Shown here in pieces: positions 6,369 through 44,942 of a DNA stretch of 64,000 nucleotides (positions are counted from its first letter, which is position 1; every line of letters starts with the position of its first letter). The translations under genes and the position numbers were made by a program. Source of the DNA: Pseudoxanthomonas sp. CF125 (GTDB lineage Bacteria; Pseudomonadota; Gammaproteobacteria; Xanthomonadales; Xanthomonadaceae); assembly GCF_900104085.1 (NCBI RefSeq), contig NZ_FNLD01000001.1, positions 186,001-250,000 on the forward strand, written 5' to 3'. The notes beneath the pieces are model-generated. The model was given only the letters and a program-made list of their open reading frames with translations, ran no database searches and was not told the DNA's origin.

Positions 6369-6384
6369 CGTTCCCACAACGCTC

Positions 6385-8661: not shown

Positions 8662-8668
8662 GGAGATC

Positions 8669-11458: not shown

Positions 11459-11537
11459 GCCTTACCTCTGGATCGTAGGGTTTTGTATCGCGGAGTTTTA
11501 AATCATCGCCGGGTTTTGAATCACGGAGTTCGGAACA

Positions 11538-12380: not shown

Positions 12381-12630
12381 GCAACACGACTCCTGAAGCT
12401 GAAGGGTTCCGCGCAACGCCGCCGCGACGGGAGCCGGCAGCGCCTCGCGCCGCTTGGTTTTCCCGATTTCCCCCGATGAAGCCGCCCCCGATGCCGGCGC
12501 GCTGAAGCAGCTGACCGGCCAAGGGAAGTTAGCACGGCAGCGCAGCAACAGCCCATGCTGAGACGCCGAAGCCGGCTAATGTGAGGCGGCTCGCCAACGG
12601 CGCATCGGCAGCCGTTACAATTTCGCCCAA

Positions 12631-12707
12631 GGCCCCGTAGCTCAGCTGGATAGAGCGGTCCCCTCCTAAGGGACAGGTCGTGCGTTCGAATCGCGCCGGG
12701 GTCACCA
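12631..12707 (+). tRNA. tRNA-Arg(CCT)
   Basis: A 77-base cloverleaf. The acceptor stem GGCCCCG pairs with CGGGGTC (one G-U), the D arm is AGCTCAGCTGGATAGAGC, and the anticodon stem GTCCC/GGGAC encloses loop CTCCTAA with anticodon CCT. The T arm contains GTTCGAATC and a genomically encoded CCA ends at 12707. It reads AGG arginine codons. It lies between cphB (divergent) and the threonine operon leader. Confidence 0.95.
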
Positions 12708-12838
12708 TACTTTTCGGTTGCAAGTGCAACTTTCGGCTGCAAATGCAGCTTGTCGCACTGCAACACTTGACAGCCCCCCGGGTCATCCTGTCCCCTAGGG
12801 CCATGCTTCCCGTCGCCACCCACGCAAACGCCCACCCG

Positions 12839-13041: not shown

Positions 13042-15537
13042 ATGTCGTCCGCAGCACAGCCACAGCCAGAGAGTTCTTCCAACCGCACCATCGTGCACAA
13101 ATTCGGCGGCACATCGGTCGCCGACGCCGAGCGCTTCCGCCATGTCGCTGTCCTGCTGCTGGCGCGCGAAGAGCGCGAGCAGATCACCGTGGTGTCGGCG
13201 ATGAAAGGCGTGACCGACGCGCTGATCGAGTTGTGCGAACTGGCCGCGCGCAGCCGCAGCGACTGGCGCGACCCCTGGCACGAATTGCGCGCCCGCCATC
13301 GCGGAGCAGTAGTGGCGCTGCTGGGCGAAGATTCCGGCCCGACCCTGGAGTGGTTGGACGAACGCTTCGACAAGCTGGCCGAAATCCTGGCCGCACTGTC
13401 GGTCATCGGCGAATTGCCGCGCGAAGTGCTGGACCGCGTGCAGGGGCTGGGCGAAATCTGTTCGGCCCGCCTGCTCGGCGACTACCTGAAATCCAAGGGC
13501 GAGGACTGCGCCGTGCTGGATGCGCGCGAAGTACTGGTGGTGGACCGCAGCGACCTGGGCGTGGAAGTGGACTGGGACACCAGCGGGCAGCGTTTGGCCG
13601 ACTGGCGCGCGAAGAACCCGCAGCGCCGCGTGGTGGTCACCGGCTTCATCGCGCGCGACCGCGACAACCGCGTCACCACTCTGGGCCGCAACGGCAGCGA
13701 CTACAGCGGCGCCATCTTCGCAGCGCTGTTCAACGCCGCCGAACTGCACATCTGGACCGATGTGGACGGCGTGCTGTCCGCCGATCCGCGGGTGGTGCCC
13801 GAAGCGGTGCAGTTGAGCGCGCTGAGCTACGACGAGGCCTGCGAACTGGCTTATTTCGGCGCCAAGGTCGTGCACCCGCAGACCATGTCGCCGGCCATAG
13901 AGCGCGGCCTGCCCATCATCATCCGCAACACCTTCCATCCCGAGCATCCCGGCACCCGCATCACCGCCGAGCGCGATGTCACCGGTCCGGTGAAAGGCCT
14001 GACCCTCAGCCCGGACCTGGCGGTACTGAATCTGGAAGGCACCGGCCTGATCGGTGTGCCCGGCACGGCCGAGCGCGTGTTCGCGGCGCTGCGCGATGCG
14101 CGTGTGTCGGTGGTGATGATCTCGCAAGGTTCTTCCGAACACTCCATCTGCTGCGTGGTGCGCAGCGCCGAGTCGCTGCGGGCGCAGGCCGCGTTGCTCA
14201 ATGCGTTCGCCCATGAACTCAACATCGGCCAGATCCAGCGCGTGCAGCTGACCGAAGGCGTCAGCGTGCTGGCGGCGGTCGGCGACGGCATGGCCGGGCA
14301 GCCGGGCGTGGCGGCGCGCCTGTTCGAGTCGCTGGGCCGGGCGCGGGTCAACATCCTGGCCATCGCGCAGGGCTCTTCGGAACGCAACATCTCGGTCGCC
14401 ATCGACAGCGCCGACGCCACCAAGGCCTTGCGCGCGGCGCATGCCGGCTTCTGGCTGTCGCCGCAGACATTCGCGGTCGGCGTGATCGGGCCGGGCAAGG
14501 TCGGTGCCGCGCTGCTGGATCAACTGCGCGCCGCGCAGCCGCAACTGCTGGGCAAGGCCAACCTGGATCTGCGGCTGCGGGCGATCGCCTCCAGCACCAA
14601 GATGCTGCTGGACGGGCGCGGCATCGGCGGCGACTGGCGCACGAGTTTCGGCGCTGACAGTGAAGCGCTGGATCTTGATCGCTTCACCGCGCACCTGGTC
14701 GGTTCGCACTTGCCGCATCTGGTGATCGTCGATTGCAGCGCCAGCCCGCTGGTGGCCGACCGTTACGCCGACTGGCTTGCGGCGGGCATCCATGTGGTCA
14801 CCCCCAACAAACAGGCCGGTGCGGGCCCGAGCCTGCGCTACGACGCGATCCGCGAAGCAGCGGCGGCCAGCGGCGCGCGTTTCCGCTACGAAGCGACGGT
14901 GGGCGCGGGTTTGCCGGTGATTTCCACCTTGCGCGATCTGATCGATACCGGCGATGCGGTGCTGTCGGTGGAAGGCATCTTCTCCGGCACGCTGGCCTGG
15001 CTGTTCAACAAGTTCGACGGCAGCGTGCCGTTCTCGCAGCTGGTGAGCGAAGCGCGCGGCCTGGGTTACACCGAGCCGGATCCCCGCGACGATCTTTCCG
15101 GCACCGACGTCGCCCGCAAGCTGGTGATCCTGGCGCGCGAGGCGGGACGTTCCATGACTCTGGACGATGTCGTTGTCGAAAGCCTGGTGCCGGCAGCGTT
15201 GCGTGAAGCCAGCGTCGAGGACTTCATGTCGCGCCTGGGCGAAGTGGATGCGCTGTTCGCCGACAAGCTGGCAACCGCCAAGGCGGCGGGCCAGGTGCTG
15301 CGTTACGTCGCCAAGCTGGATGCGGAAGGCAAGGCCACGGTGGGTCTGGTAGCGCTGCCGAAGGAGCATGCTTTCGCCAATCTGCGCCTGACCGACAACA
15401 TCGTGCAGTTCACCACACGCCGCTATTGCGACAACCCATTGATCGTGCAGGGACCCGGCGCGGGGCCGGAAGTCACCGCCGCGGGCGTATTCGCCGATGT
15501 GTTGCGCGTGGCGGCGGGGCAGGGGGCCAAGCTGTGA
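13042..15537 (+). CDS. thrA: Bifunctional aspartate kinase / homoserine dehydrogenase
   Basis: An 831-residue fusion catalysing the first and third steps of the aspartate pathway to threonine and methionine. The kinase domain shows [41 protein letters not shown] and [14 protein letters not shown]. Two ACT-like regulatory segments follow ([19 protein letters not shown] and [20 protein letters not shown]). The homoserine dehydrogenase half has [39 protein letters not shown] and [17 protein letters not shown]. The start ATG 13042 has AGAGG 11 bases upstream. It is first gene of thrABC, preceded by a Thr/Ile leader. The stop overlaps the thrB start by four bases. Confidence 0.96.
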
Positions 15538-31953: not shown

Positions 31954-32029
31954 TGGTGGAGCGGAGGGGGATCGAACCCCTGACCTCCACGATGCGAACG
32001 TGGCGCTCTCCCAGCTGAGCTACCGCCCC
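31954..32029 (-). tRNA. tRNA-Ala(CGC)
   Basis: On the minus strand, 76 bases starting GGGGCGGTAGCTCAGC fold into a cloverleaf. The anticodon stem CCACG/CGTGG encloses loop TTCGCAT (anticodon CGC), the T arm is AGGGG TTCGATC CCCCT, the acceptor 3' strand is CCGCTCC, then A and an encoded CCA ending at 31954. It reads GCG alanine codons. The accessory island begins beyond its 5' end, which is not the usual side for integrase-mediated insertion. Confidence 0.95.
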
Positions 32030-32255
32030 AGGTACCTGCATAGTCTATCCGTGTCGGGTGGGGCTGCGCCAGTCCTTCCCGGGGCTCTCAATAGCCCTCA
32101 AGCCACGTAAATACCTTTGACCTCATGCCCATTTCTAAGTCCGCCGTAGTTTTACTACGCCAGTTACCGGGGGTGGCCTGGTCGGCGCTAAAGCACGAAC
32201 TTCTGAGGATCGGTTCAGCCACTACACGCTTGAGGGCGAGCCGGGCCCGGCAAGA

Positions 32256-32303
32256 CGCGACATTTCCACGACATCCAAGGCCGATCATCGAATAAGACCC
32301 GAA
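32256..32303 (+). repeat. Orphan direct-repeat copy of the RND promoter segment
   Basis: This block (GCGACATTTCCACGACATCC onwards to AAGACCCG) matches 34537-34584 with about six mismatches in 48 bases, in the same orientation. It includes the regulator box CGACAT-TTCCA-CGACAT at 32258-32263 and 32269-32274. No gene of plausible length follows it. The pair of copies flanks the phosphoethanolamine transferase gene. Confidence 0.7.
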
Positions 32304-32404
32304 GCCGCGGTTCGGCATGGAACAGCGCGCGGCAAGGCCGATCATGCGCCTTTACTTGCGCAGGCGGTTGAGTTCGAAGATGCGGATCAGGAGGCGAATG
32401 TGCG

Positions 32405-32527
32405 GTGGTGGGCAATCAAAGGAACCTGATCGGCACAGACAGAACCGGCGCAGCACTCGAGGCAATGCTTCAGGACTTGGCCGGAGTCCTCGTCTCAGAA
32501 TCGTACGACGGAGGAATGTGTGCCTGA
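32405..32527 (+). pseudogene. Possible transposase remnant
   Basis: A 40-codon frame contains TDRTGAALEAMLQDLAGVLVSESYDG. The part AMLQDLAGVLVSESYDG recalls the segment around the second catalytic Asp of some DDE transposases (consensus near GVLVSDFYAAYD), but with Glu in place of Asp and truncation straight after. It is weak evidence, by memory of family motifs only, and is compatible with a past insertion event at the island edge. Confidence 0.25.
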
Positions 32528-32604
32528 TCGCGCAGATTGTCTGGGAGGCTCTGAGAGCATATCGTTTGAACGATTTGACCTCTTCTACCTATTGCCGGTG
32601 AGGA

Positions 32605-34347
32605 CTAATCCCGACGAGTTCGGCAGGAGTAGAATACGTCCAGGTTGGGGATATAAAGCGTAGTCTCTACGTCGAGCAGACCTAGGATGGACGAGAACAG
32701 GTTGTCATGGCTTACGGGTTTGTTGGCAACACTTTTAAGGCAATCCATATCAATGTCTGCGGTTATTGAAAACGCAGCCGATAGCCAAATCACCATTGGC
32801 ACTTCAAGTTGCTCGTCAGGAGCTATGGCATAGGGAATTCCGTGCAGGAACAATCCGTTCTCACCTAGAGATTCGCCGTGGTCGGAAACATAGATCATCG
32901 CCGCGTCGTAGTGGGACTGCCCCTCAAGCAGAGAGATTGTTTCAGCCAGAATATGGTCCGTGTAGAGAGCTGCATTGTCGTAAGCGTTGACGATACTGCC
33001 AACGGTGCACTTACCTAGATCAGGACTTTCGCATGGAGGCATGAATCGCTTGAAGCGATCGGGATACCTTTCGAAGTAGTTGGGTCCGTGATTCCCTAGT
33101 TGATGCAATACGACCAGTCGATCTCCCCTGGCCGGAATGATGTGCGATGCCAGGGCCTTGACAAGAATTTCGTCGTGGCAGCGAGTGCCATTGCAAAGCA
33201 CGGTATCTTGATCATCGCCGACGTGCAGGTATGGGAGACCGGCACATACTCCCTTGCACCCCGATTGATTGTCGATCCATAGGGTTTGAACTCCACCGCG
33301 ATTGAGCACATGAAGCAATGATTGGTGACTGCGAATCCTTTTTTGATCGTAGTTCGATCGTCCGTATGGAGAAAACATGCAAGGGAGTGAAACTTCGGTA
33401 CTGCTTCCACAGGCGACAGAGTTGCTAAAATTAACTAAACCAGGGATCGTAGATAGCCTGGGTGTCGTCTGCCTTGCGTAGCCGTTGAGCTCCCAGTTTT
33501 TCGCGCGAACCGTCTCACCCACCACCAACACTACCAGCCGCGGCTTCCTGGCGGCAGACGACGGCTTTTGCACTGCATCCTCTCCAATAGGTAGGGGCGA
33601 TGCTTTCTTGCCGGGTGGTGCAGCCAGTAACACCTTTGACAAAGCAACGAGGTAGTTCGCCGGCGTAACGAGGTAGCGGATCTCGCGCTGGTTACGCAGC
33701 AGCGAGCTTACATCGCGTGAGGAGAGGGATACACCAACTAGTATTACGAGCACAGACGTTGCCAGAAAGGCTAAGCGAACCAAGCTCGCTCGGGCGATAC
33801 TTCTCCTCTTGATCTGCGTCCACCAAAGCAGCGCTACTGGAAATAACGCCAGTGCGACGGGAACGAGCAGGCTTATCGTCATAAGCTCCTCCGATTCTTT
33901 GGTATCGGTATTCAGCACATTGCGCAGCATGTCTGCGTCTAGGTAGATGCCATAGGCGCTCATGAAATGAGCAGCCAGTGCGGTGGCGATCAGCAAAACG
34001 GTCAACACTGGTTTTACGATCCAACGATTCACGATGATCCCAAGAAGAAGGCAGTGCAGCGCCGTGAGGATCAAAAAGAGCGAGAGTGAGAGCTTCCATT
34101 GCACCCAAGGGCTTGGCACAGCGCTTGACCAGAATGATTTGTTGAAGAGAACAGAGAAAGCGATGCTGCTCATGAGTATCATGAGCTCGCTACTCACCAC
34201 TGGTCGTTTGAAGGTCAGTACGGCGAGATAGGACGATCGCACCGCATGAGAAAGAGAGGTGGCCGGCCTGGGCTCGGCTCTGCGTGCAGCGCCAAAGACC
34301 GAGGGACCGTGCGGGGCTGTTATGCGAGTGGCGGATGAGCGCAGCAT
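32605..34347 (-). CDS. MCR-5-like lipid A phosphoethanolamine transferase
   Basis: An inner-membrane enzyme that adds phosphoethanolamine to lipid A, lowering negative charge. Five N-terminal helices (ILMSSIAFSVLF, WKLSLSLFLILTALHCLLLGI, VLLIATALAAHFMSAYGIY...) precede a periplasmic sulfatase-fold domain. Metal and catalytic motifs are all present: VVGETVRA (Glu), ACGSSTEVSLPCMFS (nucleophile Thr), LHQLGNHGP (His) and VSDHGESLGENG (Asp-His). Stretches such as DNQSGCKGVCAGLP and LHGIPYAIAPDEQ recall MCR-5. ATG 34347 gives 580 residues without a clear RBS; GTG 34242 gives 545, nearer the MCR-5 length. A regulator box lies upstream at 34390-34406. The base composition is low in G+C (25 of 60 in 33301-33360). 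Confidence 0.9.
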   Translation of the reverse strand: MLRSSATRITAPHGPSVFGAARRAEPRPATSLSHAVRSSYLAVLTFKRPVVSSELMILMSSIAFSVLFNKSFWSSAVPSPWVQWKLSLSLFLILTALHCLLLGIIVNRWIVKPVLTVLLIATALAAHFMSAYGIYLDADMLRNVLNTDTKESEELMTISLLVPVALALFPVALLWWTQIKRRSIARASLVRLAFLATSVLVILVGVSLSSRDVSSLLRNQREIRYLVTPANYLVALSKVLLAAPPGKKASPLPIGEDAVQKPSSAARKPRLVVLVVGETVRAKNWELNGYARQTTPRLSTIPGLVNFSNSVACGSSTEVSLPCMFSPYGRSNYDQKRIRSHQSLLHVLNRGGVQTLWIDNQSGCKGVCAGLPYLHVGDDQDTVLCNGTRCHDEILVKALASHIIPARGDRLVVLHQLGNHGPNYFERYPDRFKRFMPPCESPDLGKCTVGSIVNAYDNAALYTDHILAETISLLEGQSHYDAAMIYVSDHGESLGENGLFLHGIPYAIAPDEQLEVPMVIWLSAAFSITADIDMDCLKSVANKPVSHDNLFSSILGLLDVETTLYIPNLDVFYSCRTRRD

Positions 34348-34389
34348 GGTTCGACACGATTGAGGCGTGCCGAGCAAGCTAGGGGCTCG

Positions 34390-34406
34390 ATGTCGTAGTT
34401 AAGTCG
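34390..34406 (-). promoter_or_regulatory. OmpR-type direct-repeat box before the phosphoethanolamine transferase
   Basis: On the minus strand the sequence reads CGACTT-AACTA-CGACAT, two hexamers with an 11-base period, matching the box upstream of the RND and mipA genes with one mismatch. It is 43 bases before ATG 34347. Confidence 0.6.
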
Positions 34407-34538
34407 GCTCTTGGTTATCGGATCGTTATAGAGATGCGCCCGGTGCAGACGGCCTGGGCTGCTCTTGTTGCGCACGCGTTTAGCAAAACACCCCGCATTC
34501 CGGTTGTTCCAGTCCGGGTCCCGCTGATCACAGCGGCG

Positions 34539-34555
34539 CGACATTTCCACGACAT
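34539..34555 (+). promoter_or_regulatory. OmpR-type direct-repeat box before the RND operon
   Basis: CGACAT-TTCCA-CGACAT, perfect hexamer repeats with an 11-base period, 78 bases before the GTG of the adaptor gene. Direct repeats spaced one helical turn apart are the usual target of OmpR/PhoB-class response regulators, and one such regulator is encoded in the same operon. Confidence 0.7.
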
Positions 34556-34632
34556 TCAAGGCCAATCATCGGCGAAGACCCGGATTCGCCACGGTCACAA
34601 GTCGTGCGTGATGCCCTTGATAAGGACTCTTA

Positions 34633-35766
34633 GTGGATAGAAAGAAAAGCAAGACCGCGCTAACTGGGGCGGCGATCATCGTTGTTGGAATACTGACAGC
34701 GCTGTATTTCTCGCTCAGCAGCGACGTCGCCCCCAAAACGGTAGCCGCAACGCCCGTGCTGACCGTGGCCATGACGCGAGCGCAACTCTCTGTACTGCCT
34801 CAACGAATTGCGGTAAGCGGCCACATCGCCCCTTGGCAAGAGGCGAGCGTCGGCACCGAAGCAGAGGGTTTGCAGCTTATTGAGGTTAAGGTCAATGTGG
34901 GCGACCGGGTTCGCCGCGGGCAAGTATTGGCTGTTTTCAAGCCGGAAATGGTCGCGGCCGAGCTAGCCGAGGCGCAGGCTGCTGTAGCGCAGGCCGAGGC
35001 GCAACTCGCCGAGGCCCAAGCCAATGCTGAGCGGGCTAAGGGCCTGGACGCCTCTGGCGCCATGTCCGCCCAGCAGGTTAACCAGTATGTGGTGGCGGCT
35101 CGGACGGCCTTGGCCAGGCTGGAGGCGGCCAAAGCGGTCAAACAGCGGAATCGCCTTCGGCTTGCACAGACCCGCGTGCTGGCGCCGAGTGATGGGATCA
35201 TCACCGCGCGCACCGCCACCGTGGGCGCCGTAATGCCCGGCGGGCAGGAGCTATTTCGCCTGATTCAGGATGGCCGCCTGGAATGGCGAGGCACCGTGGC
35301 GATGGCGGACATGACCTTGCTTGCGCCAGGGCAACTTGCGCAGATCAGTGTTCATGGCCAAACACCTATCCAAGGTCGCCTAAGAATGGTGGCGCCTTCC
35401 ATAGACACCCAGACTCACAACGGGTTGGTCTATGTGGATTTGCCAGCAAATAGTCCGGTCCGTGCTGGCGCATTCGCTAGAGGCTTTATTGAGGTGGGAC
35501 AAGGGCAGGCATTGACGGTGCCGCAGCAAGCGGTGCTGCTACGCGATGGGTTTAGCTTTGTCATGCGCCTGGATCCGGCGTCCAAAATCCTAATGACCAA
35601 GGTCTTGGTCGGCAGGCGCGTAGGTGATCAAGTGGAAATCACCGATGGACTAACAACTTCCGAGCCCATCGTCGCCTCAGGGCTGAGCTTCCTCAGCGAA
35701 GGGGATACGGTCAAGGTAGTGCGAGCCCCCGCCCAGGCTTTGACGCAGACGGCGGGCACGCCATGA
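34633..35766 (+). CDS. RND efflux periplasmic adaptor (membrane fusion protein)
   Basis: A 377-residue HlyD-type adaptor with one N-terminal helix (TALTGAAIIVVGILTALYFSLSS). The start is GTG 34633, with AAGGA 6 bases upstream. The lipoyl half-motifs are GLQLIEVKVNVGDRVRRGQVLAVF and TRVLAPSDGIITARTATVGAVMPGGQELFRLI. A coiled-coil hairpin rich in Ala, Glu and Gln lies between (AELAEAQAAVAQAEAQLAEAQA), and beta-barrel and MP domains follow. It links the inner-membrane pump to an outer-membrane channel. The stop overlaps the pump start by four bases (ATGA). Confidence 0.92.
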   Translation: MDRKKSKTALTGAAIIVVGILTALYFSLSSDVAPKTVAATPVLTVAMTRAQLSVLPQRIAVSGHIAPWQEASVGTEAEGLQLIEVKVNVGDRVRRGQVLAVFKPEMVAAELAEAQAAVAQAEAQLAEAQANAERAKGLDASGAMSAQQVNQYVVAARTALARLEAAKAVKQRNRLRLAQTRVLAPSDGIITARTATVGAVMPGGQELFRLIQDGRLEWRGTVAMADMTLLAPGQLAQISVHGQTPIQGRLRMVAPSIDTQTHNGLVYVDLPANSPVRAGAFARGFIEVGQGQALTVPQQAVLLRDGFSFVMRLDPASKILMTKVLVGRRVGDQVEITDGLTTSEPIVASGLSFLSEGDTVKVVRAPAQALTQTAGTP

Positions 35767-38700
35767 ACCTCAACGTATCCACCTGGTCAATCCATAACCC
35801 AGTCGCAGTCACCCTGCTTTTCATCCTGTTGACCGTAGCAGGGATTGGCGGCTTCTTGGCGATGAAGGTGCAGAACTTTCCGGACATCGATTTTCCAATC
35901 ATCACCGTTACGGCTGAGTTGCCCGGGGCCTCGCCGCCTCAGCTAGAGAGCGATGTGGCACGCAAGATCGAAGATGCCGTGGCCAATATTCCCGAAATCC
36001 GACACATCAGTAGCACCCTGACGGACGGGACGGCGACGATCACGGCCGAGTTCCTGCTTGATAAGCCAGTGCAAGAGGCGATGGACGATGTGCGAGACGC
36101 GGTAGCGGGCACCCGGTCCGAGTTGCCTGCCGATCTCCGAGACCCGGTGATCAGCAGAAGCACGCTGGCTGGCTCGCCTGTTATGACTTACACACTCACT
36201 TCCACGCGTCTGGATGCCGAAGCACTGTCTTGGTTTATTGACAATGAAGTGCGTAAGCGTCTGCTGGCTATAGCAGGGGTCGGCGCGGTGTCGCGCGTGG
36301 GCGGCGTTGATCGGGAAGTGCGCGTCTCCTTGGAACCAGACCAACTGCTTGCTTTGAATGCGAGCGCAGCAGATATCTCCCGCCAGCTCGCCGAGCTGCA
36401 GCAAGAGGCTTCAGGCGGTCGGGTAGAAGCCGGTGGAGGCGAGAAGTCGGTGCGTACGATCGCCACGCTCGCTACAGCGCAAGAAATCGCGGGCCTGGAC
36501 ATATCGTTGGGCGATGGGCGCCGGATACGATTGGATCAGGTAGCCACGGTGTCGGACACCATCGCAGAGCCTAGATCGATGGCGCTGTTCAACGGCAAGC
36601 CGGCGGTGGGTTTCGAAGTTATACGGGCCAAAGGGGCAGGCGAGATCGAAGTGGCCGAAGCGGCGCAGGCGGCGGTAGAAGAATTGAAAGCCGCGCACCC
36701 GGAGATAGTATTCGTCGAAGCGGTCAATTCGATTGATCCCATTGTGGATAATTACCACGGTTCGATGACGCTGTTGCTGGAAGGCGCAGTGCTGGCTGTC
36801 ATTGTGGTGTTCTTCTTCCTGCGCGACTGGCGGGCTACTTTTATTGCGGCGGTGGCATTGCCGCTTTCGGCAATTCCTGCATTTGCCGCAATGTACTTGA
36901 TGGGATTCACGCTCAACACGGTCTCACTTCTTTCCTTATCTTTGGTCATCGGTGTGCTGGTGGACGATGCGATTGTGGAAATTGAGAATATAGAACGGCA
37001 CTTACTGATGGGTAAATCGCCCATGCAGGCCTCGATCGATGCTGCCAGCGAGATCGGACTGGCGGTGATTGCCACAACGTTCACGCTAATTGCAGTGTTT
37101 CTGCCAACTTCCTTAATGGGTGGGATTGTAGGGAAATACTTTGTTCAATTTGGCTGGACTGCAGCCGTTGCGGTGTTCTTCTCTTTGGTGGTCGCGCGAA
37201 TGCTCACCCCTACGATGGCCGCCTACATGTTGAAGGCACCTGAAAAGACGCCCCGGCCGCCGCGGTGGGTCGAAACCTACATCCGTACTGTGCGGTGGTG
37301 TTTAAATCACCGCCGTGCGACGGTAGCGGCCGCTATCGTCCTGATCTTGGGCGGCGTTGCCCTTGCCTCGACGCTGCCAGAAGAGTTCATACCTGCTGAC
37401 GACGGCGATCAGACGCAGGCGACGTTGTCGCTGCCACCAGGCAGCACCATCGCCCAAACACGCGCTCTGGCCGAAATTGCGCGCGTTGTTGTAGCGAAGA
37501 ACCCGCACGTGGTATCGGTTTACACCGCCATTGGTGGGAGCTCAAGAGCATCAGGACCTGAAGATGACGAAGAGTCCGCAGGATCGAGCGGAGGCGTTGG
37601 GACTGCCGTGCTGACGATGAACCTCGCGCCTCGAAGTGAACGTGGAGGGCTGGATCGCCAAGGCCTTGAGGGCCAGCTCCGCAATGCCTTGTCTGTCGTG
37701 CCCGGGGCGCGCGTGAGCGTTGGCATGGGGGGGGTGGGCGAGGGCTATTCGCTTGCTTTATCGTCAGAAGACGGTGAGCTTCTTGCTCAACAAGCAGCGT
37801 TGGTTGAGCAAGAGCTCAGGACGATTCCAGGCATTGGCGCGGTTACTTCCTCGGCAAGCCTGGTGCGGCCGGAGTTGGTCATCCGCCCAGATTTCGCACG
37901 TGCTGCGGATCTGGGCGTAACCTCCGCCGCCATTGCCGAAACCCTTCGCGTCGCTACCTCTGGCGATTACAGCCAAGCATTGTCGAAGCTCAATCTTAGC
38001 GAGCGTCAAGTTCCGATCGTGGTGAGATTGGCCGACAGTGGTCGCGACGACCTTGAAATCCTGCGACGACTGCCCGTGCCTGGTGCGCGCGGGTCGGTGC
38101 CGTTGGAAAGCGTGGCAGACCTGCAGATCCTGAGCGGACAATCAGAACTGACTCGTTATAATCGGGCACGCAACATCAATCTCACTGCTGAGCTGAATGG
38201 GCTGCCATTGGGCGATGTAGAGGAAGCGGCCGGCCAACTGCCGAGCCTCAAGAAGCTACCCAAGGGGGTCACAATTACGGCCACGGGCGATGCCGAGGAA
38301 ATGGATGAGTTGGCCGCCGGGTTTGGTATTGCCATGCTTGCTGGCGTGTTATGTGTGTATATGGTGCTAGTACTGCTGTTGAAGGATTTTGGTCAACCAC
38401 TTACGGTCATAGTGGCTCTGGCGCTATCGGTGCCCGGTGCCTTCCTGGCGCTGAAACTGACAGGTTCCTCGCTGTCGATGCCCTCGATGATCGGCTTGAT
38501 TATGCTGATGGGGATCACCACCAAAAACGCTATCTTGCTCGTGGACTACATCATTATCGCGCGGCGGGATCACGGCATGGAACGGTTGTCCGGAATCATC
38601 GATGCTTGCCGCAAGCGTGCCCGGCCCATCGTCATGACGACCATCGCGATGGGAGCGGGTATGTTGCCCATTGCATTAGGCCTGGGTGCCGATGCCAGCT

Positions 38701-38876
38701 TTCGCTCGCCCATGGCCATCGGTGTGATTGGAGGCTTGATCACCTCGACCGCGCTCTGCTTGCTGGTAATACCGGTGGCATACAGCTACATCGACGACGC
38801 GATTGGGGCAATGAAGGCTCGTTTGGGCATTTCCATGGGCAAACCCGTGGCTGGAACCACGGAGCGCTTGGCATGA
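35763..38876 (+). CDS. RND multidrug efflux permease
   Basis: A 1037-residue pump of the AcrB/MdtBC/MuxBC superfamily. It has 12 membrane helices in two repeats with large periplasmic loops. The first loop starts VQNFPDIDFPIITVTAELPGASPPQLE. Helix 4 has the proton-relay pair in VIGVLVDDAIVEIENIERH, and helix 10 has the matching lysine in MGITTKNAILLVDYIIIARR. It is normal full length. Translational coupling to the adaptor and the OmpR-type box upstream suggest induction by the nearby two-component system. The substrate is unknown. Confidence 0.94.
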   Translation: MNLNVSTWSIHNPVAVTLLFILLTVAGIGGFLAMKVQNFPDIDFPIITVTAELPGASPPQLESDVARKIEDAVANIPEIRHISSTLTDGTATITAEFLLDKPVQEAMDDVRDAVAGTRSELPADLRDPVISRSTLAGSPVMTYTLTSTRLDAEALSWFIDNEVRKRLLAIAGVGAVSRVGGVDREVRVSLEPDQLLALNASAADISRQLAELQQEASGGRVEAGGGEKSVRTIATLATAQEIAGLDISLGDGRRIRLDQVATVSDTIAEPRSMALFNGKPAVGFEVIRAKGAGEIEVAEAAQAAVEELKAAHPEIVFVEAVNSIDPIVDNYHGSMTLLLEGAVLAVIVVFFFLRDWRATFIAAVALPLSAIPAFAAMYLMGFTLNTVSLLSLSLVIGVLVDDAIVEIENIERHLLMGKSPMQASIDAASEIGLAVIATTFTLIAVFLPTSLMGGIVGKYFVQFGWTAAVAVFFSLVVARMLTPTMAAYMLKAPEKTPRPPRWVETYIRTVRWCLNHRRATVAAAIVLILGGVALASTLPEEFIPADDGDQTQATLSLPPGSTIAQTRALAEIARVVVAKNPHVVSVYTAIGGSSRASGPEDDEESAGSSGGVGTAVLTMNLAPRSERGGLDRQGLEGQLRNALSVVPGARVSVGMGGVGEGYSLALSSEDGELLAQQAALVEQELRTIPGIGAVTSSASLVRPELVIRPDFARAADLGVTSAAIAETLRVATSGDYSQALSKLNLSERQVPIVVRLADSGRDDLEILRRLPVPGARGSVPLESVADLQILSGQSELTRYNRARNINLTAELNGLPLGDVEEAAGQLPSLKKLPKGVTITATGDAEEMDELAAGFGIAMLAGVLCVYMVLVLLLKDFGQPLTVIVALALSVPGAFLALKLTGSSLSMPSMIGLIMLMGITTKNAILLVDYIIIARRDHGMERLSGIIDACRKRARPIVMTTIAMGAGMLPIALGLGADASFRSPMAIGVIGGLITSTALCLLVIPVAYSYIDDAIGAMKARLGISMGKPVAGTTERLA

Positions 38877-38894
38877 GTTTCTTGGCGACCATCG

Positions 38895-39125
38895 ATGTGC
38901 CTTATGAAGAGGGCCTTGACGGGTCTGCGTCTTTCACAGTTCCTATGGCTGATCACGATGCTTGTGCTCGAAGCACTTATTGGGCAGGGCGGGGAGGCGA
39001 CGCTACAGGAGCGCCCGTGGTTCTATATGGCTCACGCCGCCGTTGCACTCCATCTGCTGGGCTATATTCAAACGGTCTGCGTCGTGGTGAAGTTTGTGGC
39101 GAGCGGCCTGGCCGGGTTGATGTGA
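38895..39125 (+). CDS. Small membrane protein of the RND operon
   Basis: A 76-residue protein with two hydrophobic stretches (LRLSQFLWLITMLVLEALI and FYMAHAAVALHLLGYIQTVCVVVKFVAS). Start 38895 or 38904 (MKRALTGL) is uncertain and neither has a good ribosome-binding site. It fits between the pump and the response regulator, leaving 16 bases to the latter. A different frame starting at 38873 overlaps the pump stop but encodes a non-hydrophobic, unlikely protein. I do not recognise a family. It may be an accessory subunit of pump or sensor. Confidence 0.55.
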   Translation: MCLMKRALTGLRLSQFLWLITMLVLEALIGQGGEATLQERPWFYMAHAAVALHLLGYIQTVCVVVKFVASGLAGLM

Positions 39126-39141
39126 TCGAGGATCAAAAGAT

Positions 39142-39855
39142 ATGACAAACGGAAGAAAAGTGAACAAGGAACCCTTGTCGATCTTAATCATCGAAGACAA
39201 CGCTCAGTTGGCCGCGAACGTGTATGACTATCTGGCCGCTTGCGGACATCTGCTCGACGCAGCCCCCGACGGACTATCTGGGTTGCACCTGGCGTCCTCG
39301 AAGGACTATGACGCGATCTTGCTGGATTGGAACTTGCCCAGGCTCGACGGCCTGACAGTGCTGCGTCGAATCAGAAAAGAGGCGAAGAAGAAAGTGCCTA
39401 TTATCATGCTGACGGCACGGGACCAGTTGGCAGACAAGATCGATGGTTTCGAATCCGGTTTGGATGACTATCTCGTCAAACCGGTAGCACTACCGGAGAT
39501 CGAGATTAGATTGCGCTCAGTGGTGAGTCGTTTGAGGCAGGCGGCGGCACCCGATGACGTACTTGTTGTGGGTGATCTGCATTTCGACCTGCGGAAACTG
39601 CAAGTGCGTCGAGGCGATCGGAATGTGGCAGTTTCCCGGATTGGCCGCCGCCTCTTGGAGCTTTTGATGCGGGAGAGTCCGAACATCGTCAACAGGTCCC
39701 GCTTAGAGCGTGCCGGATGGGGCGAGATCGTACCCGACGGCGATCTATTGCGCTCGCATATCTACGTGCTGCGCCGGGAAATTGATACGGCCGCGGACAA
39801 ACCGCTTCTGCATACTGTTTCGGGTGCCGGTTATAGGATCTGTGAGAATGAGTAG
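39142..39855 (+). CDS. OmpR-family response regulator
   Basis: A 237-residue regulator. The receiver domain contains ILIIEDNAQLAANV (acidic pocket), the phospho-acceptor Asp in AILLDWNLPRLDG, conserved Thr in PIIMLTARDQ and Lys in DDYLVKPVALPEIE. The winged-helix output domain follows from about residue 135 (LHFDLRKLQV to LLRSHIYVLRREIDTAADKPLLHTVSGAGYRI). It pairs with the overlapping histidine kinase and is the natural candidate to bind the CGACAT direct repeats in this island. An earlier residue stretch (MTNGRKVNKE) precedes the domain, and MTN is kept as start. Confidence 0.93.
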   Translation: MTNGRKVNKEPLSILIIEDNAQLAANVYDYLAACGHLLDAAPDGLSGLHLASSKDYDAILLDWNLPRLDGLTVLRRIRKEAKKKVPIIMLTARDQLADKIDGFESGLDDYLVKPVALPEIEIRLRSVVSRLRQAAAPDDVLVVGDLHFDLRKLQVRRGDRNVAVSRIGRRLLELLMRESPNIVNRSRLERAGWGEIVPDGDLLRSHIYVLRREIDTAADKPLLHTVSGAGYRICENE

Positions 39856-41203
39856 GCTCACTGCGCTTATCAGCACTCCGCGCAGTGTTCACTGGTGGAT
39901 CAGCGTGGCCTTGATTTTCTTCGGACTGGCAATGATGGCCGCGCTCACCATCCAGAGTTTCAACAGTCAATCTTTGATCGAGCACAAATTCTGGGCAAGC
40001 CTTCTTAGGGACACATCGGCCGAACATGCCAAGCAGTTGCGGGAGCATCCGAATGTTGCGCTTCCCGACTCCGGAATCGTTCGATCATGGTATGTCGACA
40101 AATCACGTGGCGCCTCACAGGCGCCCAGCTACTTAGTTGATCATCCCCCGGGCCTTTATTCGACCGAGGCGGGCTCTTTTTTTACCGGCGTTAGCACGTT
40201 CACTGAGGATGATTCGTTCGATGATCAGTCCAGTTTCCACGCACTGATTGTAGATCTTCCTCCGGGCCGGCTTATCACGGTCATTGATATAGCCCAGCTT
40301 GAAGATCAACAGAATCAGGATGCGGTGGTCACGGTAGTTTGGGCGGCGTTTCTCGTATTGTTCATTGGCGGGCTCATTTTCTGGCTGCATCTAAATCTTG
40401 TCCGGCCTGTAAGAGACCTGGCCCGGCGCATGCAGGCGATTGTGCCTGGTGCGCCTGGCGGACGCCTACCCACGAGCTATCAAAGAGAGGAGATCCAGGT
40501 CATTGCCCAGGCGAGCAATGCGCATTTAGAGCGGGTAGAGCAGTTCATCGAGCGCGAACGAAGTTTGCTCGATCAAGCCAGCCATGAATTTCGGACGCCT
40601 ATTGCCGTGATCGCAGGGGCGGTGGACGTGCTCAAACAGCTTTCGTTGCCCGACGCGTCCGCGCCCGTGCTGGCGCGTATCGAGCATGCCGTGGAAGATC
40701 TGTCGGAAACAATGGTCGCCCTGCTCTATCTCGCCCGCGAGCCTTCGAACCAGGCGGGGACGCCAGAAATTACCGCCCTGCACGATCTGCTGCCCAGGAT
40801 ATTGGCCGACCATGAGCATCTTCTGGGCGATAAGCCGGCAAGGCTGCGGATTGGCGTGATCGAGTCGGCTTTTATCGCGGCCCCGGAGGCCATGGTTCGC
40901 ATTGCGGTGAGTAATCTGATCCGCAATGCGGTGGAGAGCACAGAGGATGGAGAGGTCGAGCTGTCTCTCGAAGGCTTCGTAATCTCGGTAACCGACTCGG
41001 GAAGTGGCTTTAACCCCGTCGAGGCGGCGCGTAGGTATCGCGACAGCTTGCGCCAGTCTGTGCCCATTCGCGGGCAGGGTTTGGGGCTGTTTCTCATTGG
41101 AAGAATTTGCGATCGGTTTAACTGGAAACTCACGATTGAGCAGGTTGCCCCCGGCGGCACGCGTGCGGCTTTGGATGTAAGAGCAAGCGCCATCGAGTTT
41201 TAA
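39848..41203 (+). CDS. Sensor histidine kinase
   Basis: A 451-residue membrane kinase starting MSRLTALISTPRSVHWWISV (ATG 39848, overlapping the regulator by 8 bases). Helix 1 (SVALIFFGLAMMAALTIQSF) and helix 2 (VVTVVWAAFLVLFIGGLIFWL) enclose a ~130-residue periplasmic sensor domain with acidic patches (TEDDSFDD). HAMP-like linker, dimerisation box with phospho-His in LLDQASHEFRTPIAVIAG, then ATP-binding N box (VSNLIRNAVES), G1 (SVTDSGSGF) and G2 (GQGLGLFLI). An acidic periplasmic sensor would suit cationic peptides or cations, as in PmrB/PhoQ; that is inference. Confidence 0.92.
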   Translation: MSRLTALISTPRSVHWWISVALIFFGLAMMAALTIQSFNSQSLIEHKFWASLLRDTSAEHAKQLREHPNVALPDSGIVRSWYVDKSRGASQAPSYLVDHPPGLYSTEAGSFFTGVSTFTEDDSFDDQSSFHALIVDLPPGRLITVIDIAQLEDQQNQDAVVTVVWAAFLVLFIGGLIFWLHLNLVRPVRDLARRMQAIVPGAPGGRLPTSYQREEIQVIAQASNAHLERVEQFIERERSLLDQASHEFRTPIAVIAGAVDVLKQLSLPDASAPVLARIEHAVEDLSETMVALLYLAREPSNQAGTPEITALHDLLPRILADHEHLLGDKPARLRIGVIESAFIAAPEAMVRIAVSNLIRNAVESTEDGEVELSLEGFVISVTDSGSGFNPVEAARRYRDSLRQSVPIRGQGLGLFLIGRICDRFNWKLTIEQVAPGGTRAALDVRASAIEF

Positions 41204-41243
41204 GGGGTAGACAGCCGTCGTTCAGCGCAATTGGCAGATCACG

Positions 41244-41260
41244 CGACATTTGGACGACAT
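41244..41260 (+). promoter_or_regulatory. OmpR-type direct-repeat box before mipA
   Basis: CGACAT-TTGGA-CGACAT, perfect hexamer repeats with the same 11-base period as upstream of the RND operon. It is 100 bases before the mipA start, in the 156-base gap after the kinase gene, so mipA and the genes after it probably have their own promoter. Confidence 0.7.
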
Positions 41261-41359
41261 CGCCTCGTCATTCTGTTGGGGTTGGTTGCAGCGAGCCGTG
41301 CAAGCACACGGGACGTTCGCAAAGGACAAATCCCCATCATTGAAGAGACCCGGTGTCCG

Positions 41360-42175
41360 ATGAAGAAACTTCTATTGTCCGTATTGCTATCCACTTTGCC
41401 GTTGGCCACCTTGGCTCAGACTGCAGATCCGGAACAGGCCTTCCCGGAAGAGGATGGTCCGCAAGAAGGCCCCCCGCGCTGGAGCTTGGGTATCGGAGTG
41501 ATCATCGAAGACAGTGGATACGCCGGCGAAGGGACGGATGTGCAGCCGATCCCATTTGTGGGCTTTGAGGGCGAGAAGTTCTACGTAAGGGGTCTAACGG
41601 CTGGCTGGCGGTTCATTGATAACGACTCTTTCGAGTTGGCGGCAATCGCAAAGTACAAGTTTGATGGCTTCGAGGTCGCGGATCTGGGTAAGGCTGAGCT
41701 CGCGGCGAACGGGATCGACTACCGACTGCTTGAAGATCGCGATGGTGGTTTGGATCTAGGTCTGAGCGCCAAATGGAAGGGTGGCTTCGGCGAGCTGGAA
41801 ACGGAGATCTTGGCCGATGCCACCAATACCAGCAGTGGACAAGAGGTTTCTTTGCAATACAGCTATGAGTTTGAAGTCGGTAAAGGAGAGCTGACCCCAA
41901 ATGTGGGCGTCAAGTGGCTGTCGAAGGATACGGCCAATTACTACTACGGCACACTGGATAAAGAGGTAGCGCGAGGCGTGGTGAATTACAAGCCCGGCTC
42001 GGTCGTCATTCCAAGTGTTGGCGTGTCTTACTTCCGTCCGGTTGGCGAGAAGTGGTCGTTCATTGGTTTTGCCGACTATAACTTCCTGCCCAATGAGGTC
42101 AGCGATAGTCCGTTGATCGAGAAAGATACAAACGGCGCCTTCTTCGTCTTCGTAGGTTTCTCACGCGGCTTCTAG
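41360..42175 (+). CDS. MipA/OmpV-family outer-membrane protein
   Basis: A 271-residue protein with signal peptide MKKLLLSVLLSTLPLATLAQ and an acidic mature start (DPEQAFPEEDGPQEGPP). The body is made of amphipathic beta strands (WSLGIGVIIEDSGYAG, FYVRGLTAGWRF) and ends in FVGFSRGF, an outer-membrane barrel C-terminus. MipA was named for interaction with the lytic transglycosylase MltA. In Pseudomonas aeruginosa a MipA protein has been linked to polymyxin sensing, as I recall. The regulator box upstream ties it to the island's two-component system. Confidence 0.82.
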   Translation: MKKLLLSVLLSTLPLATLAQTADPEQAFPEEDGPQEGPPRWSLGIGVIIEDSGYAGEGTDVQPIPFVGFEGEKFYVRGLTAGWRFIDNDSFELAAIAKYKFDGFEVADLGKAELAANGIDYRLLEDRDGGLDLGLSAKWKGGFGELETEILADATNTSSGQEVSLQYSYEFEVGKGELTPNVGVKWLSKDTANYYYGTLDKEVARGVVNYKPGSVVIPSVGVSYFRPVGEKWSFIGFADYNFLPNEVSDSPLIEKDTNGAFFVFVGFSRGF

Positions 42176-42190
42176 GTTCTCTCCTGACGT

Positions 42191-42206
42191 GCCCCCTCGC
42201 GGGGGC
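42191..42206 (+). other. Small G+C-rich hairpin between mipA and the outer-membrane factor
   Basis: GCCCCC TCGC GGGGGC forms a 6-bp stem 15 bases after the mipA stop. No T-tract follows, so it is not a standard terminator. It may partly reduce read-through into the next gene or protect the mipA message. Confidence 0.4.
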
Positions 42207-42266
42207 ATTGGGTCCAGCGCCCGACACTTGGCGCGGAGTTGTCCACCGAAACCATCCGAGCCTCCC

Positions 42267-43697
42267 ATGCGTGCCTGTATTCAAGTGATCCAACCAAAGC
42301 TTGTGGGTGCGCTCATATCGAGCCTGCTGGTGGGCTGCTCACTGGCGCCGGCTTACCAGCGGCCCCCAGCGCCTGTGCCGGAAATGTGGACAGACGGCAC
42401 GCAGGGCCAGGCAAGCAGCGATACTGCTACGCGACTGGAATGGCAGTCTTTTGTTGAAGATCAATCGCTTAGGCATCTAATTGACCTGGCGCTGGCCAAT
42501 AATCGAGATCTACGTCAGACCCTGCTGAATGTTGAAGCCGCCAGGGCACAGTATCGGATCCTGCGGGCTGATCGATTGCCCCATGTGTCATTGGACGCAA
42601 CTACGACTCGTCAGCGAGTGGGTGAATTCTCGGCTGTGGAGAGCAGCTATCAAGCCGGCATTGGACTTACCACGTTTGAGCTTGATCTTTTCGGACGAGT
42701 GCGGAACCTTTCCGAAGCTTCTTTGGAAGAGTATCTGGCTGCGGAGCGGGCGGGGCACTCGACCGAAATTAGCTTGGTGGCCGAGGTTATCCAAGCGTTT
42801 CTGACTCGCGATGGCGCGCAGCAACGCTATGCCATCGCCACCCAGGCCCTTGAAGCGCGCGAGACTTCCTTGACACTTTTAGCGCAGTTGCGCGCGCGCG
42901 GCTTTATCAACGAGCTCGACCATCAAGAGGCCATTGGCCTCCGCGACCAGGTAAAAGCAGATCGGGAAAGGATTGATCGCGAGTTTCGGCAATCCTCCAA
43001 CGCTTTGTCTTTGCTCGTCGGAGTTTCTAATGTCAGTGAGATCCTGCCGAAGATGTATAGCGATCGTCTTCTTCTGGCGCAGGAGATCGCACCGGGAACG
43101 CCGTCAACGCTGTTGATGCGCCGTCCCGATATCCGCTCGGCCGAACACCAGCTAAAAGCACGCAACGCCGACATTGGCGCTGCCCGCGCCGCTTTTTTTC
43201 CGCGCATCTCACTGACAGGCTCATTGGGCAGCAGCAGCCCCGAGCTTTCAGGTCTCTTTGGCTCTGGCACACGTACGTGGTCATTCACACCACAGATTAT
43301 CTTGCCCATCTTCAGTGGGGGTGCGAACCGAGTAAATCTGGATCTGGCGCATGTCCGCAAAGACATCGCCGTGGCCGCTTATGAGTATTCCATTCAGGTC
43401 GCCTTCCGCGAAGTCTCCGATGCACTAGCAGCAACTGACACGCTAAGACGTGAAGAGATTGCACGGGCGGAAGTGGCTGTCGCATCGGGCAACGCAATGC
43501 TGCTATCCGAAGCGCGTTATCGCGCGGGACTGGACGACCATCTCCGCTTCTTAGATGCACAGCGCACCGACTATTCCAATCAGATTGCGTTGATTGAAAT
43601 TCATACCCAACGACAGATCGCCCTGTCGGCGCTATTTCGCGCACTAGGCGGCGGCTGGCGGGGAGAACTATCGGGCGATGTGGTGTCGGTTCGATGA
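42267..43697 (+). CDS. NodT-type outer-membrane efflux lipoprotein
   Basis: A 476-residue TolC-family channel starting MRACIQVIQPKLVGALISSLLVGCSLAPAYQRP (ATG 42267) with lipobox LLVGC. It has two OEP repeats: LALANNRDLRQTLLNVEAARAQYRILRADRLPHVSL and the second-half equivalent ARNADIGAARAAFFPRISLTGSLGS. MRRPDIRSAEHQLK is a family signature. It supplies the outer-membrane duct for the RND pump encoded 3.4 kb upstream, although it is separated from it by the two-component genes and mipA. Confidence 0.92.
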   Translation: MRACIQVIQPKLVGALISSLLVGCSLAPAYQRPPAPVPEMWTDGTQGQASSDTATRLEWQSFVEDQSLRHLIDLALANNRDLRQTLLNVEAARAQYRILRADRLPHVSLDATTTRQRVGEFSAVESSYQAGIGLTTFELDLFGRVRNLSEASLEEYLAAERAGHSTEISLVAEVIQAFLTRDGAQQRYAIATQALEARETSLTLLAQLRARGFINELDHQEAIGLRDQVKADRERIDREFRQSSNALSLLVGVSNVSEILPKMYSDRLLLAQEIAPGTPSTLLMRRPDIRSAEHQLKARNADIGAARAAFFPRISLTGSLGSSSPELSGLFGSGTRTWSFTPQIILPIFSGGANRVNLDLAHVRKDIAVAAYEYSIQVAFREVSDALAATDTLRREEIARAEVAVASGNAMLLSEARYRAGLDDHLRFLDAQRTDYSNQIALIEIHTQRQIALSALFRALGGGWRGELSGDVVSVR

Positions 43698-43784
43698 ATT
43701 GGCAAGGCCCCCTTGGCTAGCGAACTTTCAGGCCAGGGAAATGAGTAGAGAAAAAAGCGTCCCCACCGCTTCGAGACCCCTGAT

Positions 43785-44000
43785 ATGCACACCTACAACA
43801 CTCGGAATGCGCACGAGTTGCGCAAGAGCCGTCATATGCTGATATTGCAGGACTTGCCTGACTTGCCTCCCCCCTTGGTAAGCAGCAAACGCAGTTCCCC
43901 CGCCAAATGGCTACGTCGGGTGTCGGTGTTGTTCGTGTTGATTTCTCTGGTTCTGGGCACACGCTCGGCTTGGTTGAGCTTGATCGGATTAGGGTCATGA
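43785..44000 (+). CDS. Small hypothetical protein coupled to mlaA
   Basis: A 71-residue frame whose stop overlaps the mlaA start (ATGA at 43997-44000), which argues that it is translated. The C-terminal half has one hydrophobic helix (VSVLFVLISLVLGTRSAWLSLIGLG) after a basic stretch (SSKRSSPAKWLRR). The true start may be ATG 43836 (MLILQDLPDL, 54 residues). No family is recognised. Confidence 0.45.
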   Translation: MHTYNTRNAHELRKSRHMLILQDLPDLPPPLVSSKRSSPAKWLRRVSVLFVLISLVLGTRSAWLSLIGLGS

Positions 44001-44932
44001 CGCGCGTGGTCTTCTGGAAGGTGCTGCTGAGCTTGGGACTCGTAGCGAGCTTGGTGGGTTGCGCAACTGTTTCCGAAAAGCAGCCTCACTCGGCGCTTGC
44101 CCAAGCCGACACTCCAGTGTCGATGATTGTCTCAGACCCTGCGCCCGCGGCCGTGCCGATTGCACCTGACTTTGTGCCAACGGTTCCTGACCGAGTCGAT
44201 GTGGAGCGTGATGAAACAAGGGTAGCGGCCAAGTTTGTGGAATCTGGGGGTGATAAGAAGAGTGAGAACCTTGAGATGCCCGCCGGAAAGGTTGGGATCT
44301 ATGATCCATGGGAGCGGTATAACCGGAAAATGCATCGGTTCAATATCGCGGCCGATCGGTCAGTGGCGCGGCCTGTGGCCAGGGCCTATGTGAAGGTCGT
44401 GCCGGCGCCAGTGCGCTCTGGAGTGAGTAACTTTTTTGACAATCTGGGACAGCCAGCTACCGCGGTGAATGCGCTGCTTCAAGGCAAGGTCAAGCATTCG
44501 GCGCAAGCGTTGGGGAGATTTGTAGTGAATAGCACAATCGGGGTGGCCGGAATCTTCGACCCGGCAAGCCGCATGAAGCTTCCGGAACGCGATGAGGATT
44601 TTGGACAGACGCTTGCCACCTGGGGCTGGCGGCGCTCCCGTTACTTTGAACTACCTTTTTTCGGTCCTAGCACGGTGCGCGATGCGTTTGGCATCGCAGG
44701 AGACTTGCCATTGCAGCCTCTCTCCTATGTAGAGGCCGATAAGGTCCGTCTCGGCTTAAAAGCCATCGGCCTAATCGATATGCGCGCGCGCCTCCTGGCT
44801 TTCGACTCGTTGAAGGATGAAGTCATCGACGACTACCTGTTGGTTCGAGACACATGGTCGCAGCATCGCAATTTTCGGATAAAGGAAGACACGGGCCGCG
44901 ATGCGTCGCTGCCTGACTATTTGAAAGAATGA
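43997..44932 (+). CDS. mlaA: MlaA (VacJ) family lipoprotein
   Basis: A 311-residue lipoprotein with signal and lipobox MTRVVFWKVLLSLGLVASLVGCATVS. After a proline-rich linker comes the MlaA domain: YDPWERYNRKMHRFNIAADR, NFFDNLGQPATAVNALLQGK, NSTIGVAGIFDPASRM, DEDFGQTLATWG and ELPFFGPSTVRDAFG. MlaA removes mislocalised phospholipid from the outer leaflet of the outer membrane. Here it stands apart from any mlaBCDEF genes and ends the island operon. Next to a lipid A modifier it fits an outer-membrane repair role. Confidence 0.93.
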   Translation: MTRVVFWKVLLSLGLVASLVGCATVSEKQPHSALAQADTPVSMIVSDPAPAAVPIAPDFVPTVPDRVDVERDETRVAAKFVESGGDKKSENLEMPAGKVGIYDPWERYNRKMHRFNIAADRSVARPVARAYVKVVPAPVRSGVSNFFDNLGQPATAVNALLQGKVKHSAQALGRFVVNSTIGVAGIFDPASRMKLPERDEDFGQTLATWGWRRSRYFELPFFGPSTVRDAFGIAGDLPLQPLSYVEADKVRLGLKAIGLIDMRARLLAFDSLKDEVIDDYLLVRDTWSQHRNFRIKEDTGRDASLPDYLKE

Positions 44933-44942
44933 GCCGGTGAGG

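Follow-up and report, generated by a model that had tools for sequence, protein, structure and literature searches.

A recurring block of MipA, two-component system, RND pump and lipid A genes with a promoter box in Pseudoxanthomonas sp. CF125

The stretch of DNA analyzed here, called the window throughout, comprises 64,000 nucleotides of Pseudoxanthomonas sp. CF125 (contig NZ_FNLD01000001.1, positions 186,001 to 250,000). Between a tRNA-Ala gene and the gene for RNase D it carries a block of about 12.9 kb (32036-44939) that encodes an EptA-family lipid A phosphoethanolamine transferase, an RND efflux pump, an outer-membrane efflux channel, a two-component system (TCS) composed of an OmpR-type response regulator (RR) and a sensor histidine kinase, the acidic outer-membrane barrel MipA and the lipoprotein MlaA. 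The block is a recurring unit, in which the sensor core and a tandem promoter box are constant and the effectors vary.

Genes and borders of the block

All eight genes named in the initial annotation, which had been made from the letters alone, are present with open frames and match Pfam or NCBIfam profiles (EptA, adaptor, RND permease, RR, kinase, MipA, channel and MlaA). The block and its borders are composed as follows.

31954..32029, minus strand: tRNA-Ala(CGC), left border (ARAGORN, Rfam)
32605..34377, minus strand: eptA, EptA-family lipid A phosphoethanolamine transferase, probable GTG start at about 34242; EptA_B_N (PF08019) and Sulfatase (PF00884); NF028537, 555.1 bits, cut-off 500
34633..35766, plus strand: RND periplasmic adaptor, HlyD-type; TIGR01730, 200.5 bits, cut-off 94.9
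35763..38876, plus strand: RND permease, drug-type (ACR_tran); PF00873, 740.9 bits; best PDB match MdtB 9lyq
38904..39122, plus strand: hydrophobic open reading frame (ORF) of 73 aa between pump and regulator
39142..39855, plus strand: OmpR-type RR; Response_reg and Trans_reg_C; orthologues at 61-82%
39848..41203, plus strand: sensor histidine kinase, periplasmic domain about 110 aa long; HisKA and HATPase_c; alignment of 18 kinases
41360..42175, plus strand: mipA, acidic outer-membrane barrel; PF06629; model pLDDT 84.5
42267..43697, plus strand: outer-membrane efflux channel, OEP/NodT family; TIGR01845, 342.4 bits, cut-off 210.05
43997..44932, plus strand: mlaA lipoprotein; PF04333, 238.7 bits
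44943..46040, minus strand: RNase D, right border; TIGR01388, 365.8 bits, cut-off 298.95; present in 38/38 genus genomes

For eptA, mipA, the channel and mlaA, likelier starts than the first in-frame ones were placed by eye farther downstream, at about 34242, 41360, 42267 and 43997, respectively. The 73-aa ORF matches no Pfam family, and tblastn gave no match of at least 45 bits to it in the 17 loci compared below. The transferase had been labeled MCR-5-like, a label that did not survive: the protein scores 516.7 bits with the MCR-5 model NF033463 against a cut-off of 1250, it is 45% identical to MCR-5.1, and the resident EptA of the same genome is closer at 61% identity, so that MCR-5 is merely the nearest among the MCR models. 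The protein does pass the general lipid A transferase model NF028537, and both of its Pfam domains are present.

The borders were set by comparison with the sister genome G033, in which tRNA-Ala(CGC) and RNase D are neighbors. The match between the two sequences stops at 32035 and restarts at 44940, and G033 has 30 nt between these points, so that the window holds 12.9 kb where G033 holds 30 nt. The G+C content of the block is 0.570, compared with 0.638 on the left (12.0-31.9 kb) and 0.654 on the right (45-64 kb). The earlier description of a 12-kb low-G+C block beside tRNA-Ala thus holds for the drop in G+C and for the tRNA adjacency, whereas its borders had to be moved, the true start being 32036 and not 32605. 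A classical tRNA-integrated island was considered and rejected: the 3' end of the tRNA faces away and none of the block's eight annotated genes encodes an integrase, so that the tRNA serves only as a marker of the site. The spacing of tRNA-Ala and RNase D was scanned at 19 of the 38 RNase D loci of the genus; the two lie within 160 nt of each other at 10 of them and 884 nt apart at one, and the remaining 8, the window's own included, have no tRNA-Ala within 1.5 kb. In two relatives, G026 and G019, the interval contains some 2 kb that include a DEAD-box helicase gene; such intervals, at loci L206 (2590-4716) and L207 (3285-5583), mark the site as variable.

G033 has a module copy of its own, located on a different contig and some 2 kb away from a tRNA-Gly. 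Its identities to the window are 77% for the adaptor, 83% for the pump, 81% for the RR, 76% for the kinase, 73% for MipA and 60% for MlaA, compared with 96% for RNase D. This disparity between a core protein at 96% and module proteins at 60-83%, together with the differing sites, speaks for separate acquisition in the two sister genomes, and the block appears to have moved horizontally. A plasmid-borne module was also considered and rejected, the best plasmid matches among those listed being 38% identical for MipA and 47.6% for EptA. Outside the block, the window contains two near-identical hairpin-like repeats (CGTCATYCCAGCGAA...) at 16573 and 51201, both on the minus strand, which are probably repetitive extragenic palindromic (REP) elements.

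Recurrence of the module and its promoter box

RR orthologues (61-82% identity, E values up to 1e-85) were detected in 16 of 394 other genomes of the family, and an overlapping order-wide draw gave 13 of 398 genomes, the own genome included, and added 2 genomes of another family. Seventeen loci were compared, namely L159-L174 and L030 (Tahibacter soli); L029 (Lysobacter sp. ISL-50) and L170 were taken as one contig from their length and gene content, of which L170 alone was counted. By tblastn, the kinase is present in 17 of these loci, MipA in 16, the adaptor and the RND permease in 14 each, MlaA in 7 and the channel in 3, where a channel match at L159, which has 29% identity, is on the minus strand and belongs to another pump, was left out. 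EptA was found in 0/17 of these copies, and 11/17 have an LpxO-type enzyme (in two pieces in L166). The conserved co-occurrence by which the initial annotation proposed to check the block as a unit is consequently seen for kinase, MipA, adaptor and permease, is variable for channel and MlaA and fails for EptA. The one LpxO-type protein checked among the 11, that of L029, contains Asp_Arg_Hydrox (PF05118) and reaches 282.4 bits with the LpxO model NF033391, below its cut-off of 500, and is by its profile scores an LpxO-type relative and not an equivalog.

The composition of individual copies illustrates this variability. The minimal forms L173 and L174 have the order box-mipA-rr-hk and no pump, with an LpxO-type gene added in L173 and with the L174 module starting 1.4 kb from a contig end. 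Another minimal form, L165, consists of box-rr-hk-box-mlaA and is devoid of pump and MipA, and in L159 an mlaA gene (60%) follows mipA directly. Adaptor, pump, RR, kinase and MipA diverge in parallel, their pairwise distances giving correlations of r 0.72-0.94, uncorrected for species relatedness. The core was also present in two loci found later. A second module-type kinase (61% identity) is encoded behind an LpxO-type gene in L163 (16102-17439). Protein cluster P0002, which has 37 member sequences, contains a MipA that is 94% identical and is encoded on one 21-kb contig of ENA origin, so that metagenomes may harbor near-identical islands.

A repeat scan of the block revealed a 21-nt element that occurs three times, and its exact form, CGACATTTNNACGACAT, has three copies in the 4.2-Mb genome, every one inside the block. 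The box consists of a tandem CGACAT-N5-CGACAT, followed by 8 nt and a -10 element, and such a tandem with an 11-bp step is typical of the boxes of OmpR-family regulators. The sites in the window are listed with their fit to an extended pattern that was derived from the boxes of the 17 loci.

32258..32288, plus strand: orphan box, tandem CGACAT plus -10 element; exact match; 38.5 bits, second in the window
34376..34406, minus strand: weaker box facing eptA, CGACTT-N5-CGACAT, -10 positions kept; 2 mismatches; rank 5 in the window
34539..34569, plus strand: box of the pump operon; exact match; kept in orthologous loci
41244..41274, plus strand: box ahead of mipA and the genes that follow; exact match; top site of the window, 45.4 bits

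The first pattern of the box was fixed from the window alone, before other loci were compared. Of the 32 regions upstream of module genes at the 17 loci (14 adaptor, 16 mipA, 1 rr and 1 mlaA), 30 contain it with at most 2 mismatches, where 0.01 were expected from 200 dinucleotide shuffles of each region; the regions were set by the starts of the tblastn matches and not by annotated starts. The two exceptions are the L170 adaptor, with 3 mismatches, and the mlaA of L165, for which the tblastn match starts inside the gene. Only 7 further matches exist in 656,546 other positions, and these are located ahead of mlaA (L164, L165, L168, L169, L170 and L171) or of lpxO (L162). In an alignment of 36 boxes, which excludes the L170 adaptor and the minus-strand boxes of L164, a -10 hexamer follows at a constant distance; its second position is A and its sixth position is T in 36/36 each. 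At the two loci found later, L211 and L212, all 3 testable places have the first pattern with at most 2 mismatches.

In 18 genomes the extended pattern has 37 exact matches, 36 of them within the module and 1 elsewhere in genome G017, compared with 0 for the reversed control. Of the 38 genomes of the genus, 8 encode the RR, and the extended pattern occurs in the same 8 and in 0 of the remaining 30; a Fisher test on this 8/0/0/30 table ignores relatedness. The sequence data support well the view that the module would be one unit under one switch, and the box may serve as a sequence rule to find module members and to predict targets.

The orphan box, located beyond the 3' end of eptA, falls within 53 nt that duplicate the pump promoter region (85%). 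No recognizable gene lies behind it, there is no protein-level match in the loci searched for it (own-genome copies excluded), and the 94-aa ORF that follows has no Pfam match. Of the best 14 nucleotide matches of this stretch, all but one 26-nt fragment are module promoters. The orphan box is perhaps a relic of a lost effector gene.

The host genome also possesses resident relatives of block genes. The resident mipA (L140, C5:443000-458000; 7226-10707) is divergent from a second TCS, as would be expected from PMC10936184, and has no box within 3 mismatches. The resident eptA (L139, C5:228000-246000; 5149-12729), whose product is 61% identical to that of the island, shares its stretch with a TCS (RR 48%, kinase 29%) and has no box. 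Besides that of the block, a second MlaA is encoded in this genome.

Proposed function and competing explanations

The module bears on the question of how polymyxin-like compounds are detected at the outer membrane of Gram-negative bacteria. MipA is predicted to form a beta-barrel (pLDDT 84.5) with a net charge of about -20, and the periplasmic domain of the kinase, of about 110 aa, has a net charge of -7. The top PDB match of the MipA model is OmpG (2x9k, E value 9e-7), at a TM-score of only 0.43, and this porin is also named in PMC10936184. According to the same paper, MipA of P. aeruginosa binds polymyxins, ParR binds the mipBA promoter, loss of mipBA abolishes the induction of mexXY, a TCS adjoins mipA in most of the mipA loci screened, and MipA was proposed to be a co-sensor in one P. 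aeruginosa clade (PMC10936184). By analogy, the module likely senses cationic membrane-active compounds. We infer a sense-and-respond function, strengthened by what that source reports on MipA and ParRS of P. aeruginosa (PMC10936184). Our favored explanation, held with moderate confidence, is that the block is a one-locus regulon that would jointly induce the TCS, MipA, pump and lipid A genes in response to cationic membrane-active compounds sensed at the outer membrane.

The following sequence of events can be proposed. The acidic MipA barrel would act as a co-sensor in the outer membrane, where it would bind the cationic ligand and pass the signal to the kinase; the ligand would reach MipA, the kinase or both, and the kinase would phosphorylate the RR. 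Phosphorylated RR is predicted to bind the box and to activate transcription, by which more MipA, pump and lipid A enzyme would be made, with the induction of MipA constituting a positive feedback. The pump might then export the toxic or displaced amphiphile, EptA here, or the LpxO-type enzyme in other copies, would alter lipid A, and MlaA would clear misplaced phospholipid from the outer leaflet.

A number of observations weigh against this explanation. The low TM-score of the MipA model is one of them; another is that, among the 18 aligned kinases, 3 have periplasmic domains with net charges of 0, 0 and +1. In P. aeruginosa, according to PMC10936184, polymyxins are not exported by MexXY, and indolicidin does not bind MipA although it activates ParRS; the MipB family of that species is absent among the eight annotated genes of the block. 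In the window, the channel, mlaA and the RR gene lack a box of their own, so that they would have to be transcribed by read-through from the mipA and pump promoters. Since the extended pattern was derived from the boxes of the 17 loci, its presence inside those modules is not independent evidence, its rarity outside being independent, and several loci come from close relatives, so that the counts of shared genes are not counts of independent events. The G+C content of the module is near that of the flanks in most other copies, a point that bears on its horizontal movement. Lastly, since the host already encodes another MlaA as well as a resident EptA near a TCS and a resident MipA beside one, the block may be redundant there.

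Among the competing explanations, the one that survives best, although we regard it as rather unlikely, concedes that pump, TCS and MipA are one unit and holds that eptA was captured by chance and is separately controlled. The absence of EptA from all 17 other copies and its imperfect box, with CGACTT as the first half-site and 5 sites of equal quality elsewhere in the genome, favor this explanation and count against ours as well. However, the site that faces eptA is one of just 6 two-mismatch sites of the extended pattern in 4.2 Mb, for which the reversed control gives 1, it has kept its -10 positions, and a lipid A enzyme of another family is present in 11/17 copies.

Slightly less probable still is a role in the general lipid homeostasis of the outer membrane, in which the kinase would sense loss of asymmetry or a misfolded envelope, MlaA and LpxO or EptA would restore the leaflet, the pump would remove lipid breakdown products, and cationic drugs would be incidental. 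It is consistent with the identity of the box-bearing genes outside the core of other copies, which are mlaA and lpxO, and with L165, which retains just box-rr-hk-box-mlaA. However, the pump accompanies the core in 14/17 loci and scores as a drug-type permease, and the specific binding of polymyxins by P. aeruginosa MipA, given in PMC10936184, also argues for detection of cationic compounds.

It is improbable that the block is an efflux module of the Czc/Cus/Sil type that responds to metals and has envelope genes as accessories. The signal transduction proteins and the channel do point in that direction, since the top NCBIfam model of the RR, cztR_silR_copR, scores 160.5 bits (cut-off 279.2), which also tells against a cationic-compound sensor, the second-best model of the kinase, cztS_silS_copS, scores 75.4 (cut-off 292.55), and the channel scores 329.8 with the Cu/Ag channel model (cut-off 598). 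However, all three of these scores are below the cut-offs, there is no metal-resistance gene among the eight annotated genes, and the permease scores closer to drug-type models (RND_permease_2, 695; MdtC, 470.1; CusA/CzcA, 357; all under the cut-offs), for which reason this explanation was rejected. An accidental cluster in an insertion hotspot whose genes do not act jointly, suggested by the two relatives whose interval between tRNA-Ala and RNase D is occupied by some 2 kb that include a DEAD-box helicase gene, was already disfavored and is hardly credible in view of the conserved gene order, the parallel divergence and the nearly private promoter element.

Relation to known systems

RND pumps under the control of a TCS are known, an example being MdtABC-BaeSR of E. 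coli, in which adaptor, RND permease and TCS form one cluster that has two permeases. The block shares the clustering of adaptor, RND permease and TCS, and MdtB is the nearest solved permease here; it differs in that it has one permease, not two, and in that it contains MipA and lipid A and phospholipid genes in addition.

A second example is DzrR-DesABC, an envelope stress response that occurs in Dickeya, Ralstonia and Burkholderia according to PMC10052836. There too, an RND pump driven by an RR answers envelope-targeting agents, and the box that precedes the pump genes is a tandem of six bases with an 11-bp step; its sequence is CTCCAT-N5-CTCCAT, whereas the pump box of the window is CGACAT-N5-CGACAT (PMC10052836). 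The main text of that paper contains zero mentions of MipA (PMC10052836). The DzrR box was tried as a candidate on the 80 nearest named pump loci and was found in 0 of the 74 testable ones (at most 1 mismatch, plus strand, 0.9-3.6 kb before the permease; the window was outside the scan). For PmrAB-EptA operons and MCR-5, PMC10285318 describes an EptA-family transferase beside a TCS, a proximity also seen here, but in the block eptA is divergent from the pump operon and its product misses the MCR-5 cut-off.

Scoring the same 80 pump loci for RR and MipA gave matches to both in 12, which are the close loci L029 and L030 and ten distant ones with 29-35% identity for the RR and 24-30% for MipA. 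All ten distant loci have GGTAAG-N5-GGTAAG (at most 2 mismatches) facing mipA, and 8 of the ten have it facing the pump operon; the 29 raw matches are made up of these 10 and 8, 1 facing mlaA and 10 others. At L027, labeled Thiobacillus denitrificans, an exact copy precedes an mlaA gene directly behind the pump (13151-13306). The RRs of two Pseudomonas pump-MipA loci, L051 and L064, are 31-32% identical to that of the block. We tentatively suggest that a portable cassette of MipA, kinase and RR may build regulons by promoter capture, that the adjoining effectors (EptA, LpxO, MlaA and pump) would each acquire the same tandem box and be interchangeable outputs of a single cation sensor at the outer membrane, and that this design could have arisen or persisted in a second lineage with GGTAAG; we think it possible, though the odds are somewhat against it.

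The closest likeness in gene content is to ParR/ParS-MipB-MipA-MexXY-OprA, where an OmpR-type TCS also stands beside a MipA barrel and where an RND pump and lipid A modification, there in strains with arn, belong to one regulon, as given in PMC10936184. As would be expected of a system of the ParRS type, what appears to be the same box precedes the RND operon and mipA here. In P. aeruginosa, the pump genes are located away from parRS-mipBA, whereas here they form one block with a private box; MipB, a lipoprotein with a beta-lactamase fold, is part of the system there, and EptA or an LpxO-type enzyme replaces arn here (PMC10936184).

No description of the module as such was found in the open-licence literature on MipA with LpxO, MlaA, RND or TCS. 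With kinase, regulator and effectors beside it, MipA is here part of a small, self-contained and probably mobile unit, which makes the co-sensor idea testable in a minimal system, and phospholipid repair by MlaA and lipid A change are tied to what is apparently the same switch. Every part of the block belongs to a known family; new with respect to the systems compared are the recurrence as a one-locus unit, the near-constant partnership with MipA, the nearly private promoter code and the exchangeable lipid A and phospholipid effectors.

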